From Candidatus Manganitrophus noduliformans (lineage in GTDB: Bacteria > Nitrospirota > Nitrospiria > SBBL01 > Manganitrophaceae), in contig NZ_VTOW01000002.1 of assembly GCF_012184425.1 (NCBI RefSeq), forward strand, positions 868,001 to 932,000: 64,000 nucleotides of DNA, read 5' to 3'. Made by a program: the position numbers and the translations under genes. The notes beneath the pieces are model-generated. The model ran no database searches. It saw nothing but the letters and a program-made list of their open reading frames with translations, and was not told the DNA's origin. Below, in pieces: positions 20,106-31,420 of this stretch. Numbering within the stretch: the first letter of the stretch is position 1; the number at the start of each line of letters is the position of its first letter.

Positions 20106-20133
20106 TTGACCTTTTAAAACGATCCGCTATAAT
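20106..20133 (+). promoter_or_regulatory. Sigma-70 promoter for the pseudopilin/propeller genes
   Basis: TTGACC (20106-20111), 16-nt spacer, TATAAT (20128-20133): a perfect -10 and a good -35, about 70 nt before the pseudopilin. Confidence 0.7.
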
Positions 20134-20203
20134 CTCAATCGCATCGGATGGAAACCGATCCGGCGTGGGATCGGGTTGAAAACCCAAGGAGGCAAGGACC
20201 GCT

Positions 20204-20737
20204 CTGATTTCTTTTCTACACCCTGATCGTGAGCCGCGGAAGGGCCGTCAGGCCGGGTTCTCCCTGCTGGAGTTGATGATCACCATCGTCATCATCTTCG
20301 TCCTTGCGATGATGGCGCTTCCCCTTTCAAAAAATATCGCCAAGCGGGCCAAAGAGACGGAGCTGAAACAACGCCTCCAGATCCTCCGGAAAGCGATCGA
20401 CGATTTCAATCGCGACTGGAACCGGGACGGGGACAACCTTCTGGGGGAGCTCTGCAAGCAGAACAAGCTCACCTGCAAAGAGGTGAGCAGCCCCTTCGGA
20501 TACCCCAAGAAATTGGAGCTCCTCCTCGGAGTGGAGCTGACGGGAGAGGTCGAGACGACCACCCGGCGCTATCTACGAAAGCCCCTTCCCGATCCGATGA
20601 CCGAATCGGGCGAGTGGGGATTGCGCTGTTATACCGATCCCCCCGATTCCGAGACCTGGTGCGAAGACGATATCTATGATGTCTATACCACAAGCGAAGA
20701 GACCGCCCTCGATGAAACCAAATACCGCGACTGGTAA
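20204..20737 (+). CDS. Type IV prepilin-like/pseudopilin (GspG-like)
   Basis: The first ATG (20273) lies inside the prepilin signal. The same frame upstream encodes RKGRQAGFSLLELMITIVII, a textbook prepilin peptidase site (G|FSLLE with Glu at +5), so translation must begin earlier. The frame is open back to 20180 but contains no ATG, GTG or TTG before the signal; CTG 20204, 11 nt after AAGGAGG (20186-20192), is the best candidate, with ATT 20207 next. The mature part keeps the pseudopilin pattern RRYLRKPLPDPMTESGEWGLR and four Cys. It is homologous to the protein at 23642-24232. Role: minor pilin or type II secretion pseudopilin in the inner membrane. Confidence 0.75.
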   Translation: MISFLHPDREPRKGRQAGFSLLELMITIVIIFVLAMMALPLSKNIAKRAKETELKQRLQILRKAIDDFNRDWNRDGDNLLGELCKQNKLTCKEVSSPFGYPKKLELLLGVELTGEVETTTRRYLRKPLPDPMTESGEWGLRCYTDPPDSETWCEDDIYDVYTTSEETALDETKYRDW

Positions 20738-20761
20738 CGGGCGGGAGCGCCGACGGGCCGC

Positions 20762-23635
20762 GTGAAGAGGCGCACCCTTTTTCTCAGGCGGTTCTTCCTC
20801 TTTGTCCTCCTCTCCGGGTGTATTCCTCTTCCGCTCACCCCACCCAAATTCGATCCCTCGCTGACATGGAAGACACTCGAGACCCCCCATTTCTCGATTC
20901 ACTTTCATCAGGGGGAAGAGCGGACCGCCGAAGAGGCGGCGCGCCATGCGGAGGAGGCCCACACCCGTTTGACGCAGCGGCTGCATTGGACCCCTTCCGG
21001 AAAAACACAGCTGGTGTTGGTCGACCACGCCGACCGGGTCCAGGGAGAGGCGACCCCTTTTCCCTATAATACGATCTACATCAACCCTTATCCCCCCGCC
21101 GCCGGAATCCTCACCCCGATCCGGTATCAGAATTGGCTCCGGGCGATCATCTTCCACGAATACACCCACATCGTCCAGCTCGATCAGGCGCACCGGCTTC
21201 CCAAGGTGTTCCGATCTATCTTCGGCCGCGTCGTCCTCCCGAATGTCTGGCAGCCCCTCTGGCTGCTTGAAGGATTGGCGACATACGAGGAGAGCGAGGC
21301 CGGAACGACCGACCGGTCCGACGGGACCTTCTCAGAGATGCTCCTTCGAACCGCCGTTCTGGAAGATCGATTCAAGTCGATCGACCAGGCGCATCTTCCC
21401 GACAGCTGGCCCGCCGGAATGACCCCTTATTACTACGGGGCCGCCTTTCATCGGTTCCTGCGCGAGCGCTACGGAGAGGAGAAGATCGCCGAGTGGAGCA
21501 ACCGGTACAGCGGCCGCCTCATTCCCTTTTTCATCGAAAGCAACGCGGAGGACGTCTTCGGCAGACGCCTCGGCGCGCTCTGGCGGGAGTGGAAAGATTC
21601 ACTTCAGGAAAAATATCGCCGGGAGGCCGCGCGTTTGAAGGAAGAAGGGATCACGACCCCTCGCCCCCTGAGCCGTTCCGACTTTTGGAAGCTCGCCCCC
21701 GTCCCTTCCCCCGACGGGAGACGGATCGCCTACACCGAGATCAACCGGCGGGAATATCCAAAGATCAAATTCCTCTCCTCCGAAGGAGAATCGAAGTGGA
21801 ATACATCGGAAGAGAATTCGATCCGGCGAAACTCCGATGCCGGGCTCTCCTGGTCCCCCGACGGAAAATCGATCGTCTTCTCCCAAATGGAGGTCTTCGG
21901 AAATTTCTCCACCTACAGCGATCTCTACCGGTTTGATCTGGACGATCGGAAGCTCCGGCGGCTGACGAAGGGGCTGCGGGCGAAAGACCCCGATTTCTCC
22001 CCGGACGGACAACGGGTCCTCTTCGTCCGGCAGGAGATCGACCGGAGCGATCTCTGGATCTGGGAAGAGGGAGAGAGCCGTCTCCTCCTCTCCGGCGAGC
22101 GGGATCAATTCTTCGCTACCCCGCGCTGGTCGCCCGACGGTAAGCGGATTGTCCTCTCCATCTGGAGCGGGGGAAATCAGGACATCGCGCTTTATTATCT
22201 CGAATTGAACCGCCTCGAGCGGGTGATGGAGGATGCGGCGCTCGACCTCACCCCCGTCTGGTCTCCCGACGGAGAAGTCCTTCTCTTTGTTTCCGATCGG
22301 GAAGGGATCTTCGATCTTTTTGCCTACACTCTTTCCGGCCGGCAGTTTTATCGGGTCACCCGTCTCTTGGGAGGGGCCTTCACCCCCTTCGTCTCCCCCG
22401 ATTCGAAGTCGATCTTCTTCTCCTCATACCGCGCAGACGGATTCGAGATCGCGGCGATCCCGTATGACCGATCTTCCTGGAAACCGATCTCCGTCGCGGC
22501 CGCGGCGCCGGCGGAAGCGGCTTCCCCTGTGGATGCGCCGCCGATCGAGGAGGCCGGCCGGGTCCATTCCTACTTTGAGCCGGCGACCCTCCTCCCCCGG
22601 TTCTGGGTCCCCCTCTTCGGGGTCGATGAAGAAGGGCTGACCGTCGGCGCGCTGACCGGCGGGGTCGATCCGCTCGGGAAGGACCGCTACCTTCTCAATC
22701 TCTTTTACGGTTCGGAGAGCGACCGGTTCTCCTATCAGATCGATTACTGGAACGATCATTTTACCCCGACCCTTCATTTCCAGTGGCTCGACCGGGCAGA
22801 CCCCCATGGGGATCTGCTGATCGAGCCGGACGGGGATGAGAAAACCTACTGGGAGCGGAACCGGCGGTTTCGCATCGAAGCGATCTTTCCTTTCCTCACC
22901 TTCGAGCGGCAGTCGTTTATCTCGGTCGGTTATCAGCGGGAGGCGCTCGCGTCGCTGACCGATCTCGGCGCGTCGCTGGTGATTCCGGAAGAGGGGGTCT
23001 TAAGCGGGCTTCGTCTCTCTTGGGTCTACAACAGCGCCCATGAATACGGCTTCTCCATCAGCCCGGAAGAGGGGCGGCGCCTCTTTCTCACCCAAGAAAT
23101 TTTCCGCCGGAAGTTCGGGGGAGATGTCAACCGGCGGCGGACGATCGGCGGATGGCGTGAGTATTACAATCTCCCCTGGCCCAACCAGCTCTTCGCCGCC
23201 CAGCTCTCCGGGGGGCTTGCGCACGGCGATCTCCTCGTTCAGCGGAGTTTTCAGCTCGGCGGGCTGACCGCCCCCTTTGCCGATTTTCAGGAGGAGCCCT
23301 TCCTCCTCCGCGGCTATCCGGCACGTGAATTCCGCGGCGAGCGAGCCCTTTCCTTCTCGGTCGAATACCGCTTTCCGCTCAGAAACGTCGAGCGGGGATG
23401 GGGGACGTTTCCCTTCTTCGTTCGCCGCCTGCATGGAACCGTTTTCGGAGATCTGGGAGATGCCTGGGATGAGGGAGAGGGGGGACCCTCCTTTAAAAGC
23501 GGGGTCGGCGGCAGTCTTGGAACCGATTTTTATCTCGGCTATTACATTCCCGTTCGTCTTCAGGGGGGGGTTGCGAGAGGGCTCAGCGAGGAAGGAATCA
23601 CACTGGTCTTTATCACCCTCGGGAATGCATTTTGA
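20762..23635 (+). CDS. Lipoprotein with gluzincin motif, TolB/PD40 propeller and C-terminal beta-barrel-like domain
   Basis: 957 residues, GTG start. Lipobox LLSG|C near residue 20. N-terminal domain has HEYTH (about 139) followed by LLEGLATYEES, the HExxH...E arrangement of gluzincin metallopeptidases. Then PD40/TolB-like repeats (LSWSPDGKSIVF, PDFSPDGQRVLF, PRWSPDGKRIVL, PVWSPDGEVLLF). The last 300 residues alternate as outer-membrane beta strands and end with GDLGDAWDEG... and a terminal Phe, as in BamA-like surface antigens. Inferred location: outer membrane or periplasm. It follows the pseudopilin by 24 nt. Substrate unknown. Confidence 0.75.
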   Translation: MKRRTLFLRRFFLFVLLSGCIPLPLTPPKFDPSLTWKTLETPHFSIHFHQGEERTAEEAARHAEEAHTRLTQRLHWTPSGKTQLVLVDHADRVQGEATPFPYNTIYINPYPPAAGILTPIRYQNWLRAIIFHEYTHIVQLDQAHRLPKVFRSIFGRVVLPNVWQPLWLLEGLATYEESEAGTTDRSDGTFSEMLLRTAVLEDRFKSIDQAHLPDSWPAGMTPYYYGAAFHRFLRERYGEEKIAEWSNRYSGRLIPFFIESNAEDVFGRRLGALWREWKDSLQEKYRREAARLKEEGITTPRPLSRSDFWKLAPVPSPDGRRIAYTEINRREYPKIKFLSSEGESKWNTSEENSIRRNSDAGLSWSPDGKSIVFSQMEVFGNFSTYSDLYRFDLDDRKLRRLTKGLRAKDPDFSPDGQRVLFVRQEIDRSDLWIWEEGESRLLLSGERDQFFATPRWSPDGKRIVLSIWSGGNQDIALYYLELNRLERVMEDAALDLTPVWSPDGEVLLFVSDREGIFDLFAYTLSGRQFYRVTRLLGGAFTPFVSPDSKSIFFSSYRADGFEIAAIPYDRSSWKPISVAAAAPAEAASPVDAPPIEEAGRVHSYFEPATLLPRFWVPLFGVDEEGLTVGALTGGVDPLGKDRYLLNLFYGSESDRFSYQIDYWNDHFTPTLHFQWLDRADPHGDLLIEPDGDEKTYWERNRRFRIEAIFPFLTFERQSFISVGYQREALASLTDLGASLVIPEEGVLSGLRLSWVYNSAHEYGFSISPEEGRRLFLTQEIFRRKFGGDVNRRRTIGGWREYYNLPWPNQLFAAQLSGGLAHGDLLVQRSFQLGGLTAPFADFQEEPFLLRGYPAREFRGERALSFSVEYRFPLRNVERGWGTFPFFVRRLHGTVFGDLGDAWDEGEGGPSFKSGVGGSLGTDFYLGYYIPVRLQGGVARGLSEEGITLVFITLGNAF

Positions 23636-23641
23636 TGCGAA

Positions 23642-24232
23642 TCAAAACGGCGGCGGCGAATCGGTCGGATTGAGTCTGGAGGACGAAGGGGGGGAGGACG
23701 GGGTTGCAGGAGGGACCGGCGCTTTCGACGGCGGCAGGTTGTGAATCGCCTGCTGCGGATTGTACTCGAAGAGCCATTCCGAATATTTCTTCTTTCCCTC
23801 GAAGCTCTTCAACTCTTCCGGAAAATTTCCGATCTTGAGGGGGGTCTCTTCGCTGGCGCTGCGAACCCCCTTCACCCGGCCGCTTCCGTCCCGGAGGAGA
23901 ACCCACTCCCCCCCGGTGACCGGGTCGGGATAAATCTTCCTCAAATAACGCCGGATTCCCGGAGAGCCGGGATCTTTGATCAAATCCTCGAGCGTCCGGG
24001 GATACTGTGAAAAACCGGCCCGGCTGGTTCGATAATAGAGCTCGATCCCCCGCCGGATCGCCTGGCCCCGGAACAACAGCTCCGTCTCCTTCTCCCGCTT
24101 GGCGACGGTGGTCAACTGCCGGGCGGCGGTGCCGATCATCGTTCCGATCAGCACGATCGAAAACATCACCGTCAAAAAGGTGAAACCGCGCTGATTGGGT
24201 CGAAGCGAACCGGAGCGACTGGCCGCGATCAC
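23642..24232 (-). CDS. Type IV prepilin-like/pseudopilin
   Basis: 196 residues. The prepilin signal is RPNQRG|FTFLTVMFSIVLIG: cleavage after Gly and a hydrophobic helix, but Thr stands where the usual Glu at +5 would be. The body has the pseudopilin helix and RRYLRKIYPDPVTGGEWVLLRD, matching the other pseudopilin in this region. The tail is a Pro/Ser-rich spacer (PPSKAPVPPATPSSPPSSS). It overlaps the upstream propeller gene by 4 nt (ATGA) and converges with the plus-strand gene 7 nt away. Confidence 0.83.
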   Translation of the reverse strand: MIAASRSGSLRPNQRGFTFLTVMFSIVLIGTMIGTAARQLTTVAKREKETELLFRGQAIRRGIELYYRTSRAGFSQYPRTLEDLIKDPGSPGIRRYLRKIYPDPVTGGEWVLLRDGSGRVKGVRSASEETPLKIGNFPEELKSFEGKKKYSEWLFEYNPQQAIHNLPPSKAPVPPATPSSPPSSSRLNPTDSPPPF

Positions 24233-26841
24233 CGGGTCCTCCTGTAGACTCCGGTCGCCACCGTGCCGGCATAGACGATGCTGTTCTGCTGCGGATCGGC
24301 CAGAATCGCATAAACGGGGGAAGCCATCCCGTCATCGAGAGGAATCCAGTGGACCCCCTCGTTGAGGCTCTTGAAGACGCCGGCGTCGGTGCCGACATAC
24401 ATCCCCGATCCGAACGGAGACAGGGCCGGGTCGAAGGTGATGACATGAACACGAATCCCGTTCAAATCGGAAACTCCATTCCAGCTCGCGCCGCCGTCGC
24501 TGCTCTTGAAGAGCCCGGCCGTCGTTCCGGCGAAGAGCACCGACGGAAATTCCGGATGAACGGCGAGGGCAAAAACGCTCCGGGCGGAGAGGTCGTCCCC
24601 TTCGCCGGGGTTCTCCTCCGTGACACGGACCCATACGTCGGCGCCGTCATCGACCGCCTTAAAAATGCCGTTCTGAAACATCCCGGCCAAAAGGGTCGGC
24701 GGACTTCCCGGAAGAATCGCCAGCGTGTGGACGCCGCCGGTCGGCAATGTCGCGCTTACATCGGTATTCATCGGCGACCAGGTGAGATGCCCGTCCGATC
24801 CGACCGTCCCCCGGAACACCCCGCCGCCGGAGGTTCCGGCGTAGAGCCGCGTCGGATCGCCCGGATCGACGATCAAGCTGCTGACGAACTTCGTAATCTG
24901 CTGGGCGGGCAGGCCGGCCGGGCCGTTCTCTTCCCGCCAGCTGGCGCCGCCGTCGAGACTTTTATAAACGCCGTCGCCGGAGAGCGCGGCATAGAGGATT
25001 CCCGGCTGATCGGGGTGAGCGGCCAACGCCTGAACCTCCCGGGAGGCGAGCCGCGTGTTCACGGCGGTCCAAGCCCTTCCCTGATTCACACTCTTGAAGA
25101 CCCCTGCGGAGCCGCCGGCGTACAAGACATTTCCGGAAGTGGAAATCATCGATTTGATCGATGCGGCCGGAAGGGGGTTCGAGATGTTTTCCAGACTTCC
25201 GAGGTCGATCGCCGTCCACTGGCCTCCCCCGTCGGTGCTCTTAAACAATGTTCCCACCCCTCCCGCATAAAGAAGACTTTGATTTTGAGGATGAATCAGA
25301 ATAGCCCGGATATCGGTCGTCGTCAATCCCTGGTTGATCGTCGACCAGGCGGCTCCTCCATCGGTGCTTTTGAAGATCCCGCCGGTCGCGCTGGTCGCAT
25401 AGAGGATCCGGAAATCGCCTGGATCGATCATAATCGATGTCACCGATTCCATGGACGGAGCGCCGATGGAAACCCAGCCGCCCGTTCCATCGGCGCTCCC
25501 CTGATAGATCCCCTCCGGCGTCCCGGCGTAGAGAATACCCCTCGGCCCGTCGAGAGTCAAACTCAGAATCCCCAACCCGGTCAGACCGGTGTTATTTAAA
25601 ACCCAGTGATCGCCGCCGTCGACGCTGCGATACACCCCTCCCCGCGTTCCCGCATAAAGGGTCGGCACACTGGTGTGCGGCACGGTCGGGTCGATCAACA
25701 GGGCGGAGAGATCGAGGCCGTCTCCGGTCCCAAGACCGGTATTGCTTGCCTTGCGAAACTCACCGGCCGGCCCGCTGGAAAAGACCCCTCCCCCGCCGGT
25801 TCCGACATAAAGGGCGGTCATCCGCGTGGGGGTGGCCGACACTTCCGGAGAAGGAGCCGTCGGATTCCCGTTTTGCGTTACAACATAGTAATAGGGGGTC
25901 CCGTTGGAGATATTGATCGTATCGGTAAAGGAGGTCCCGGTGATCCCATCTTCGATCAGATTCAACGGATCTGTGACATCAACGCCTGCGACTACATCAC
26001 GATAGACGCGATATGTCCCTGCGCCGGAGACGGTTCCCCACCGAATCGTATTCTGGCCGTCTCCCGCCGTCACCTTGGTTGCGCTGGGGGGAGGATTCTG
26101 GCCGGTCACGTTTTCCGGAACGGCTGAAACCATCGCCGAGGGGGTCGTTTCTTCCCCGCTCACAACGGCGGTCACAACATAATAGTAGGGGATTCCATTC
26201 GTCAGACCGGTATGGACATAACTGAGCGCCACCGGATCGGATCGATCGATCAGCGTCCATGTTCCGTCAAATGAAGGAGGGGTCGTGCAGCCGGGACAGT
26301 CCCGGAAGTAGAGCTTGTAAGCGGCGGCATTGGGAACCGCATTCCAGCTCAATGAATTGCTCGCATTTCCGGCGCTGACGTCGATGCCGCTCGGCGGAGC
26401 ATAGGGATGGAAGGCGACCGCGTAGGCGGTGTTCTGGGCCAGACCCGATCCGATGATCTGCCAGGAAGCGCCGCCGTCCTCGGTCTTGAAGAGCTCTCCC
26501 CCCGCCAAAGCGGCGTAAATCTTCAGCGGATTGATCGGATCGACGATCAGGGAGCGGACCGGCTGTCCCGGAAGGCCCCGGTTGGCGGCGCTCCAGGTGG
26601 CGCCGCCGTCGGTCGTTTTATAGACGCTGACCGTGGAGCTGGCGGCATAAATGACGTTTGAATTGGTCGGATCGGCCGCCAAGGCGTAGAAAATCCCCTT
26701 GGATAAGTCGCTTGTGTCGCTCCAACCGGTCGGTTCCGGCGACTCGCGCGGGCCGGTGTTTCGGGGATCGTTGCTGCAACCTGCCAAGAGCGCGAAAAGA
26801 AAGAGGGAAAAAATACCGCTCTGCCATCCTTTTTTCATCAT
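24229..26841 (-). CDS. Lipoprotein with BNR/Ycf48-like beta-propeller repeats and two FN3-like domains
   Basis: 870 residues. Signal with lipobox LLAG|C near residue 22. More than ten repeats of the type VYKTTDGGATW / LYAGTxGGVF (for example KSTDGGAAWSTI, KSSDGGASWNGV), as in Ycf48/sortilin-like propellers. Two fibronectin type III-like modules interrupt the propeller (about residues 155-245 and 250-340, with SLSWNAVPNAAAYKLYFRD and TIRWGTVSGAGTYRVYRD). It would be an extracytoplasmic binding or scaffold protein. It is translationally coupled to the following pseudopilin. Two adjacent ATGs (26841, 26838) are possible starts. Confidence 0.82.
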   Translation of the reverse strand: MMKKGWQSGIFSLFLFALLAGCSNDPRNTGPRESPEPTGWSDTSDLSKGIFYALAADPTNSNVIYAASSTVSVYKTTDGGATWSAANRGLPGQPVRSLIVDPINPLKIYAALAGGELFKTEDGGASWQIIGSGLAQNTAYAVAFHPYAPPSGIDVSAGNASNSLSWNAVPNAAAYKLYFRDCPGCTTPPSFDGTWTLIDRSDPVALSYVHTGLTNGIPYYYVVTAVVSGEETTPSAMVSAVPENVTGQNPPPSATKVTAGDGQNTIRWGTVSGAGTYRVYRDVVAGVDVTDPLNLIEDGITGTSFTDTINISNGTPYYYVVTQNGNPTAPSPEVSATPTRMTALYVGTGGGGVFSSGPAGEFRKASNTGLGTGDGLDLSALLIDPTVPHTSVPTLYAGTRGGVYRSVDGGDHWVLNNTGLTGLGILSLTLDGPRGILYAGTPEGIYQGSADGTGGWVSIGAPSMESVTSIMIDPGDFRILYATSATGGIFKSTDGGAAWSTINQGLTTTDIRAILIHPQNQSLLYAGGVGTLFKSTDGGGQWTAIDLGSLENISNPLPAASIKSMISTSGNVLYAGGSAGVFKSVNQGRAWTAVNTRLASREVQALAAHPDQPGILYAALSGDGVYKSLDGGASWREENGPAGLPAQQITKFVSSLIVDPGDPTRLYAGTSGGGVFRGTVGSDGHLTWSPMNTDVSATLPTGGVHTLAILPGSPPTLLAGMFQNGIFKAVDDGADVWVRVTEENPGEGDDLSARSVFALAVHPEFPSVLFAGTTAGLFKSSDGGASWNGVSDLNGIRVHVITFDPALSPFGSGMYVGTDAGVFKSLNEGVHWIPLDDGMASPVYAILADPQQNSIVYAGTVATGVYRRTR

Positions 26842-26864: not shown

Positions 26865-26893
26865 AGGATAGTCGAAGAGTCCAGTACTGTCAA
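26865..26893 (-). promoter_or_regulatory. Sigma-70 promoter for the BNR lipoprotein
   Basis: On the minus strand TTGACA (26893-26888), a 17-nt spacer, and TATCCT (26870-26865), 24 nt before the start. It is back-to-back with the hemL promoter. Confidence 0.6.
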
Positions 26894-26964: not shown

Positions 26965-28248
26965 ATGAAACGAGAAAAATCGGCGGCCCTCTTTCAAGAG
27001 GCGGAGAAGCGGATTCCGGGCGGGGTCAACTCCCCGGTTCGGGCCTTCAAATCGGTCGGCGGAAACCCCCTCTTTATTAAAAAAGCGAAAGGAAGCAAGA
27101 TCGTCGATGCGGACGGAAACCGTTTCATCGACTATGTCCTTTCATGGGGACCGATGATCGTCGGCCACGCCCATCCGAAAGTCGTGGAGGCGATCAAAAA
27201 AGCGGCCGAAAACGGGACCAGCTTCGGCGCCCCGACGGCCTTGGAAATCGATCTCGCCAAATCGGTCCAGGCCAACTTCCCGCTGATGGAGCGGGTCCGC
27301 TTCGTCAACTCCGGCACCGAGGCGACGATGAGCGCCATCCGCCTGGCGCGCGCCTTCACCCGGCGGAACAAGATCATCAAGTTCGAAGGCTGCTACCACG
27401 GCCACGCCGACTCCCTTCTCGTAAAAGCCGGATCGGGCGCGACCACCCTCGGCATTCCCGATTCTCCCGGCGTTCACCCCGACCTCGCGCGCGACACGAT
27501 CACCCTTCCCTTCAATAATTTAAAGTTGCTCCAGAAGACCTTGGAACAGGAAGGAAACCAGATCGCCTGCGTGATCGTGGAGCCGGTCCCGGGGAATATG
27601 GGAACGATTGTTCCGGAAGACGGTTATCTCCCCGGATTACGGGAGCTGACGCGGCCGTTCGGGACCGTGCTGATCTTCGATGAGGTGATGTCCGGCTTTC
27701 GGATCGCCCCCGGCGGTGCGCAGGAGCGTTATGGAATCCGTCCCGATCTGACCTGCTTGGGAAAGATCATCGGCGGGGGACTTCCGGTCGGCGCGTACGG
27801 CGGAAAGCGCGAAATCATGGAGATGGTCGCGCCGGTCGGTCCGGTGTATCAGGCCGGAACCCTTTCCGGCAATCCGATCGCCATGGCCGCGGGGCTGGCC
27901 ACCCTTTCTCTGTTGAAGGATTTGAGCGTGTATGAAAAACTCGAACGCCGCGCCGCCGATCTGGCCGAGGGGCTCGCCGACGCCGCGCGGAAAGCCAAGA
28001 TCTCCGTTCAAATCAACCGGGTCGCCTCCCAGATGACCCTTTTCTTCAACAGCAACAAGGTCGCCGACTACACGACCGCCCTCCAGTCGGACCGGGACCG
28101 CTTCTCGAAGTTCTTCCTCGCCCTTCTGGAACAGGGGGTTTATCTCCCCCCTTCCCAATTCGAGGCCTTCTTCCTCTCGACGGCCCACAGTCCATCCGAT
28201 ATTGAGCAGACCGTCGCGGCGGCCTACCGGGCGTTCAAAAAGCTCTAA
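26965..28248 (+). CDS. hemL: Glutamate-1-semialdehyde 2,1-aminomutase
   Basis: 427 residues, standard length. Landmarks: [17 protein letters not shown]-type N-terminus ([12 protein letters not shown]), [40 protein letters not shown], and the PLP lysine in [17 protein letters not shown] (about residue 267). It converts glutamate-1-semialdehyde to 5-aminolevulinate in the C5 haem pathway, in the cytoplasm. A TAATG overlap joins it to the following membrane protein. Confidence 0.97.
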
Positions 28249-30883: not shown

Positions 30884-31348
30884 TTATCCTTCTGTTTCGA
30901 CCGCTTCCGACTTGATGACCTCGACCTTGACCTGGGCGGTCACGTCGTGATGGACCTTGACGGGAACCATGAAGGTCCCGATCTCCTTGATCGGCTTCTC
31001 AAGCTGGATCCTTCGTTTGTCGATCTCAAAACCCTGAGCCGCAATGGCGTCGGCGATATCCTTGGAGGTGACCGACCCGAAGAGCTTTCCCTCCTCGCCG
31101 ACCTGGACCGGAATGGAAACGGAAACGGCGCTGATTTTCTTCGCCTCTTCCTCCGCCGCCGTCTTTTCTTTCTTGATCCGGTCGGCGATCACTCTCTTTT
31201 CGTGCTCGAGCGATTTGATGTTCTTCGTCGTGGCCAGCGCCGCCATATTTCTCGGAAGGAGAAAATTTCGGGCATAACCGTCCGCCACGTTCACGAGGTC
31301 GCCCATCCGCCCCAATTTATCGACATCTTCTCTTAAAATCACCTTCAT
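30884..31348 (-). CDS. rplI: 50S ribosomal protein L9
   Basis: 154 residues from ATG 31348, preceded by GGAGAAG; the frame is open to 31381. The L9 signature is complete: MKVILREDVDKLGRMGDLVNVADGYARNFLLPRNMA, then a long charged helix and the C-terminal domain (GKLFGSVTSKDIADAI). It binds 23S rRNA at the L1 stalk base and helps keep the reading frame. Usual rpsF/rpsR neighbours are absent here. Confidence 0.97.
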   Translation of the reverse strand: MKVILREDVDKLGRMGDLVNVADGYARNFLLPRNMAALATTKNIKSLEHEKRVIADRIKKEKTAAEEEAKKISAVSVSIPVQVGEEGKLFGSVTSKDIADAIAAQGFEIDKRRIQLEKPIKEIGTFMVPVKVHHDVTAQVKVEVIKSEAVETEG

Positions 31349-31420
31349 AAAGCGCTTCTCCCTTCGCCGGATAGATTGCAAGACGAGGCCCGGCGGGGTG
31401 CCGGGCCGAATTTCGCTATT

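Follow-up and report, generated by a model that had tools for sequence, protein, structure and literature searches.

We analysed a 64-kb stretch of DNA (the window; C2:868001-932000 of the 5.17-Mb genome of Candidatus Manganitrophus noduliformans, here G000) in which two pseudopilin genes, P0001 and P0003, each adjoin a gene for a large propeller protein, P0002 and P0004 respectively. An original prediction, made from the sequence alone, had described two such pseudopilin-propeller pairs on opposite strands, and their coordinates and strands were confirmed. The features of the locus are the following, in window positions.

20106-20133, plus strand: promoter-like site TTGACC-16-TATAAT ahead of P0001 (11/12 consensus; a consensus match only)
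20186-20192, plus strand: Shine-Dalgarno-like AAGGAGG, serving a P0001 start at CTG 20204 or ATT 20207
20204-20737, plus strand: P0001, pseudopilin that has Glu5 and a canonical prepilin motif; in type II secretion system (T2SS) operons, pseudopilins of this type come after the secretin
20762-23635, plus strand: P0002, envelope protein with a lipobox, an N-terminus that looks peptidase-like from its HExxH motif alone, a TolB/PD40 propeller and a weak BamA-like C-terminal barrel
23642-24232, minus strand: P0003, pseudopilin without Glu5 and with a putative GspG-type fold; in T2SS operons, pseudopilins of this type come after secretin, P1 and GspG2
24229-26841, minus strand: P0004, lipoprotein with BNR/Asp-box (Sortilin-type) propellers
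26865-26893, minus strand: promoter-like site TTGACA-17-TATCCT ahead of P0004 (10/12 consensus; a consensus match only)

Linkage within each pair is as tight as had been predicted: 24 bases separate P0001 from P0002, and the stop of P0004 and the start of P0003 share 4 bases. The pairs are also convergent, but the stops of P0002 and P0003 are 6 bases apart and not 7 nt. A consensus scan found six promoter-like sites in the region against 1.5 expected. No ATG, GTG or TTG start lies upstream of the P0001 prepilin leader. Standard calling of open reading frames (ORFs) returns TTG 20273, with which this leader would be lost; because that codon falls within the signal helix, we place the start at CTG 20204 or ATT 20207. 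Both the AAGGAGG and the start region consist of identical letters in a congener (L105).

The pairs recur within the genus. Counting the window's own genome, P0001 and P0002 are adjacent in five of the six genomes (G000, G002, G003, G004 and G005), and P0003 and P0004 in four (G000, G003, G004 and G005). The genes are frame-broken in G003, and frame breaks are common in long-read assemblies; none of the four genes was found in G001, which is 72% complete, and the G002 assembly is in 610 contigs. All four genes are under purifying selection, with ratios of nonsynonymous to synonymous substitution (dN/dS) of 0.16-0.29 relative to the congeners G005 and G004. Conservation of the layout in further genomes of the genus, at such ratios, shows that it is not a product of chance. 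The original prediction had taken the pairs for a dedicated secretion or surface-assembly module. In a mini-system of this kind, each pseudopilin would work solely with its propeller neighbour, independently of the T2SS. The tight linkage kept in the genus, the purifying selection on all four genes and the separate promoter-like site before each pair are consistent with this idea. We found no report of these pairs in limited searching of the open-access literature, and the main text of a genomic study of Ca. Manganitrophaceae (PMC9040806) gave 0 matches for secretion, pili, propeller or lipoprotein.

P0001 carries the prepilin leader RQAG/FSLLELM and matches the Pfam family N_methyl (PF07963) with 29.5 bits against a cut-off of 21.2. 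The leader of P0003 reads NQRG/FTFLTVM, and this protein had no match in the Pfam scan. The two proteins are 34% identical across 125 residues and share the predicted motif RRYLRK-x2-PDP-x(3-4)-GEW. Glycine occupies position -1 of the prepilin site in every row of both family alignments (25/25 rows of A4 for P0003, 24/24 rows of A5 for P0001), and a long N-terminal helix appears in the predicted models of both proteins. Glutamate at mature position 5 (Glu5) was found throughout the P0001 family (24/24 rows of A5 and 14/14 rows of A2) and in none of the P0003 family (0/25 rows of A4 and 0/14 rows of A1). Glu5 is absent from GspK-type minor (tip) pseudopilins and is hence not required; P0003 is therefore a candidate minor subunit at most. 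The P0003 model, with a mean predicted local distance difference test (pLDDT) of 84.8, found GspG/PulG/EpsG chains in all of the five best of the VIA-align rows listed (Z 7.2-8.5, root-mean-square deviation 2.5-4.9, 86-98 residues), and the P0001 model was weak (pLDDT 77) and gave no clear structural match. P0003 shares the prepilin motif with the canonical T2SS GspG (PulG, EpsG) and may share its fold, but falls below the GspG equivalog cut-off and lacks Glu5.

Among 78 genomes, matches to P0001 were found in 47 and matches to P0003 in 45. In same-class genomes of the Nitrospira type, a single operon comprises secretin, P1 pilin, GspG2 pilin, LysM protein, gspF, gspE, pilM, pilN, pilO, C7 and P3 pilin. 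The P0001 of the window belongs to the P1 pilin family (54-60% identity, A2) and its P0003 to the P3 pilin family (34-42% identity, A1). We also inspected 39 named loci with a P0003-type gene, from Betaproteobacteria, Nitrospirota, Acidobacteriota and others: a secretin with P1-type and GspG2-type pilins was close by in 31, and GspE or GspF as well in 28, several of the loci without the full set being short contigs. These loci are no census, because the scan that named them, from a five-row alignment, reaches only genomes with one of two short peptides. According to the available text of a published survey (PMC6668835), pilins usually lie in one locus, and in T2SS they occupy the middle of it. 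The distance from P0003 to the ATPase gene is no more than 12 kb in 31 of the 45 genomes; P0003 lies elsewhere in 12, and the other 2 lack an ATPase match. In two of the 12 (G043 and G063), the genes are spread over short contigs, too fragmented for a judgement. Outside the genus, P0003 was likewise found away from gspE in G019, G023, G024, G026, G028 and G032. In G026 (L107:9319-10405), the P0003-type gene adjoins a gene for a ribosomal protein L9-like product; an L9-like gene is also present in the window, at 30884-31381.

The phyletic distribution of the pseudopilins follows that of the T2SS ATPase. As a query we used the GspE of C2:681 kb at E <= 1e-150, which was matched in 47 of the 78 genomes; P0002 was counted as present with matches of at least 370 residues at 39% identity or more, short propeller-only matches being dropped. 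ATPase and P0001 occurred together in 45 genomes, P0001 without ATPase in 2, ATPase without P0001 in 2 and neither in 29. The corresponding counts were 43, 2, 4 and 29 for P0003, and 8, 4, 39 and 27 for P0002. Fisher tests of co-occurrence with the ATPase, in which kinship is ignored, gave p values of 1e-16 for P0001, 8e-15 for P0003 and 0.75 for P0002. Both pseudopilins track the T2SS ATPase, whereas P0002 does not. One of the two genomes with pilin and no ATPase match, G071, carries an interrupted frame of gspE within the operon (L085) that was missed at E <= 1e-150; scoring this genome as lacking the ATPase biases the profile against a T2SS role. The other, G044, has a collapsed operon in which the P1-type and P3-type genes alone stand side by side (L097:3207-4534).

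These data bear directly on the dedicated module. In agreement with the prediction that the pairs lie outside a full gsp operon, no ATPase, secretin or platform gene was found among the window ORFs between 14 and 31 kb, which would leave such a module without motor, platform or secretin. Moreover, the two pilin families are members of complete T2SS operons in relatives and track the T2SS ATPase, and the propeller partners are not shared outside the genus. Both the profile and the operon context connect the pilins with the core of the T2SS, not with the propellers; we therefore rejected the dedicated module as the principal explanation and regard it as improbable.

The gsp and pil core genes, whose location the original prediction had left to be checked, were found at other sites of C2 than the 888-892 kb that hold P0001 and P0003. 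The region C2:677-684 kb (L150) encodes gspF and gspE, 45% and 60% identical to those of the G070 operon, together with weaker matches to pilM, pilN, pilO and the GspC/PilP-like C7; no counterpart of the LysM protein C5 turned up in L150, the only region searched for it. A GspG2-type pilin (58%) lies at C2:700.8-701.3 kb (L090), and at C2:550-553.5 kb (L088:9666-12520) a secretin gene overlaps that of a second P1-type pilin. The latter forms a clade separate from the window copy: the P0001 tree groups three rows as the window copy and four as the second copy, each with support 100/99, and does not resolve how the deeper forks are ordered. All core parts of a dispersed T2SS of the Nitrospira operon type are thus present in the genome: gspE, gspF, pilM, pilN, pilO, a weak C7, GspG2 and a secretin with P1. 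Contig C4 of the same genome (42001-62000, L089) also carries an MSHA-like cluster that is complete and includes GspE, GspF, PilM, a secretin and several pilins.

These results suggest that P0001 and P0003 are probably displaced pseudopilins belonging to a single T2SS-type machine, the genes for which are scattered in Ca. Manganitrophus. Such an arrangement departs only modestly from a known system and does not amount to a new machine. From family, operon context and phyletic tracking, we infer that the dispersed machine would assemble both proteins. They would be cleaved by the prepilin peptidase, after which GspE and GspF would build them into a pseudopilus in the periplasm, and this would push folded cargo through the secretin. 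Lacking Glu5, P0003 would have the place of a minor subunit, perhaps at the tip, and the propeller genes would have been captured into pseudopilin operons in this genus. Several observations weigh against this interpretation. The core genes are unlinked to the locus, being 210 kb away here and on other contigs or about 1.9 Mb away in congeners. The profile counts ignore the shared ancestry of the genomes. Foldseek returned no match at E <= 0.001 for the model of either pseudopilin, and both proteins missed the NCBIfam GspG cut-off (TIGR01710, 88.85 bits), with 27.3 bits for P0001 and 18.4 for P0003. Finally, the genome encodes four secretins and nine T2SSE matches, six of them strong GspE-type ATPases, and P0001 and P0003 could serve one of these other filament machines.

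Pilins can be shared between systems, and the candidate hosts, namely the MSHA-like cluster at C4:45-60 kb or a type IV pilus, are complete in this genome (L089, L092 and L151). However, the pseudopilin profile follows the specific ATPase type of C2:681 kb, and the operon context in relatives is also of that type, which makes service to another filament very unlikely. Alternatively, P0001 and P0003 might be leftovers of a lost second T2SS operon that were kept by chance beside unrelated genes. The core deletion in G044 left exactly a P1-type and a P3-type gene adjacent, and Ca. Manganitrophus does have a second P1-type pilin beside a secretin. Nevertheless, the dN/dS ratios given above speak for genes under constraint, and P0003 is the only one of its kind in its genome, since no second P0003-type gene of comparable strength was found there; we give the relic hypothesis little credence.

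A machine with displaced pseudopilins can be compared with two known systems. As in the Nitrospira-type T2SS operon, the P1 and P3 families include the window pseudopilins, and counterparts of gspE, gspF and GspG2 are present. The difference lies in the arrangement: there, the genes form one operon, whereas in Ca. Manganitrophus they occupy at least four places, with propeller genes as new neighbours. The dispersed T2SS also resembles the atypical type II (Pul) system of Geobacter and Pelobacter, whose pseudopilins are PulG, OxpG and TklG and which, in the available text of PMC3543383, is required to secrete the multicopper oxidase OmpB; the Pul system of Geobacteraceae is likewise treated in the accessible part of PMC10599522. 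Both systems have three pseudopilins, a likeness based on gene order and published text, and by operon position P0001 would be OxpG-like. A Desulfuromonadales locus (L197) shows gspF-gspE-PilM-PilO-secretin with P3, P1 and G2 pilins. Propeller pairs are not mentioned in the available text on the Geobacter system. For a lineage living on Mn(II), the analysis shows where parts of an export machine are encoded; in Geobacter, a machine of similar type exports a multicopper oxidase employed on insoluble oxides of Fe(III) and Mn(IV) (PMC3543383, available text).

The domain labels of the original prediction held to different degrees. The PD40 (TolB-like) propeller of P0002 exceeds the Pfam cut-off, and the BNR/Sortilin-type propeller of P0004 exceeds those of Pfam and NCBIfam. 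In P0002, the metallopeptidase label derives from the motifs HEYTH and WLLEGLATYEE, seen by eye, and a below-cut-off NCBIfam match (E 0.087), and the barrel label from a below-cut-off BamA match (residues 808-918, E 1.4e-4) and a C-terminal phenylalanine. The lipoboxes LLSGC and LLAGC of P0002 and P0004 were identified by eye, and so was FN3 in P0004, which Pfam did not report at E <= 0.001. P0002 matches TolB/PD40 proteins but is not TolB (133 bits against an NCBIfam cut-off of 343), and in other families of the class its full-length homologues are encoded with no pilin gene beside them.

The recurrence of the pairs elsewhere, proposed as a test of the original prediction, was seen within the genus and did not extend beyond it: the propeller pairings were found in Ca. 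Manganitrophus only. Full-length or near-full homologues of P0002 occur at eight loci outside the genus (G006, G021 twice, G026, G027, G028, G038 and G040), and tblastn of the fetched DNA, with L105 as a positive control, found no relatives of the pilins, gspE/F or the secretin at any of them. The single match was a GspE-like stretch of 73 residues (L154, E 0.003), which reads as a piece of another ATPase, and the absence means little for two short contigs (L158, 4.6 kb, and L160, 3.1 kb). With no pseudopilin at any of the eight loci, P0002 was ruled out as a conserved pseudopilin partner. P0002 may instead be an outer-membrane protein with a separate function, a speculative assignment. At the G026 locus (L157:6015-11029), its homologue adjoins a hemL-like gene, and in the window a hemL-like gene (26965-28248) likewise lies near P0002; because of this shared neighbour, P0002 was probably in a hemL neighbourhood originally.

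P0004 contains nine Asp-box-like motifs. No orthologue was found outside the genus, propeller-repeat matches alone being present among the matches listed, and no BNR ORF with at least three Asp-box motifs was found near pilins in those loci from beyond Ca. Manganitrophus that measure at least 5 kb. Speculatively, the dispersed T2SS may export P0004 as a surface lipoprotein; this idea, like any part for P0002 in the machine, is a guess that draws only on the close linkage observed within a single genus. Surface lipoproteins are among the substrates that T2SS can export, and it is possible, though somewhat doubtful, that within the dispersed T2SS P0003 was placed with P0004 so as to be co-made with its main cargo or tip-bound client. 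The 4-base overlap of P0003 with the upstream propeller gene, which is genus-wide, and the nature of P0004 as a large lipoprotein of Asp-box propellers suggest such coupling. A cargo signal, however, is not readable from sequence, and P0004 relatives stand beside a P0003-type gene in only one of the 39 named loci, that of Ca. Manganitrophus itself. More remotely, the pseudopilins might be client-specific, with P0003 translationally coupled to its cargo P0004, and P0001 likewise to P0002, an outer-membrane propeller/barrel protein that docks or releases cargo. Exchangeable pseudopilins would then provide several dedicated routes in one T2SS, perhaps for surface proteins of Mn(II) oxidation. In any case, P0004 and P0002 are two candidate clients linked to genes for pseudopilins, a point relevant to cargo recognition by T2SS; should the pairs be no more than neighbours, the locus is simply a case of gene dispersal. 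A weak P0004-like ORF (29%) was also observed at a Gallionella locus (L179:17831-20797), about 7 kb beyond T2SS pilins.

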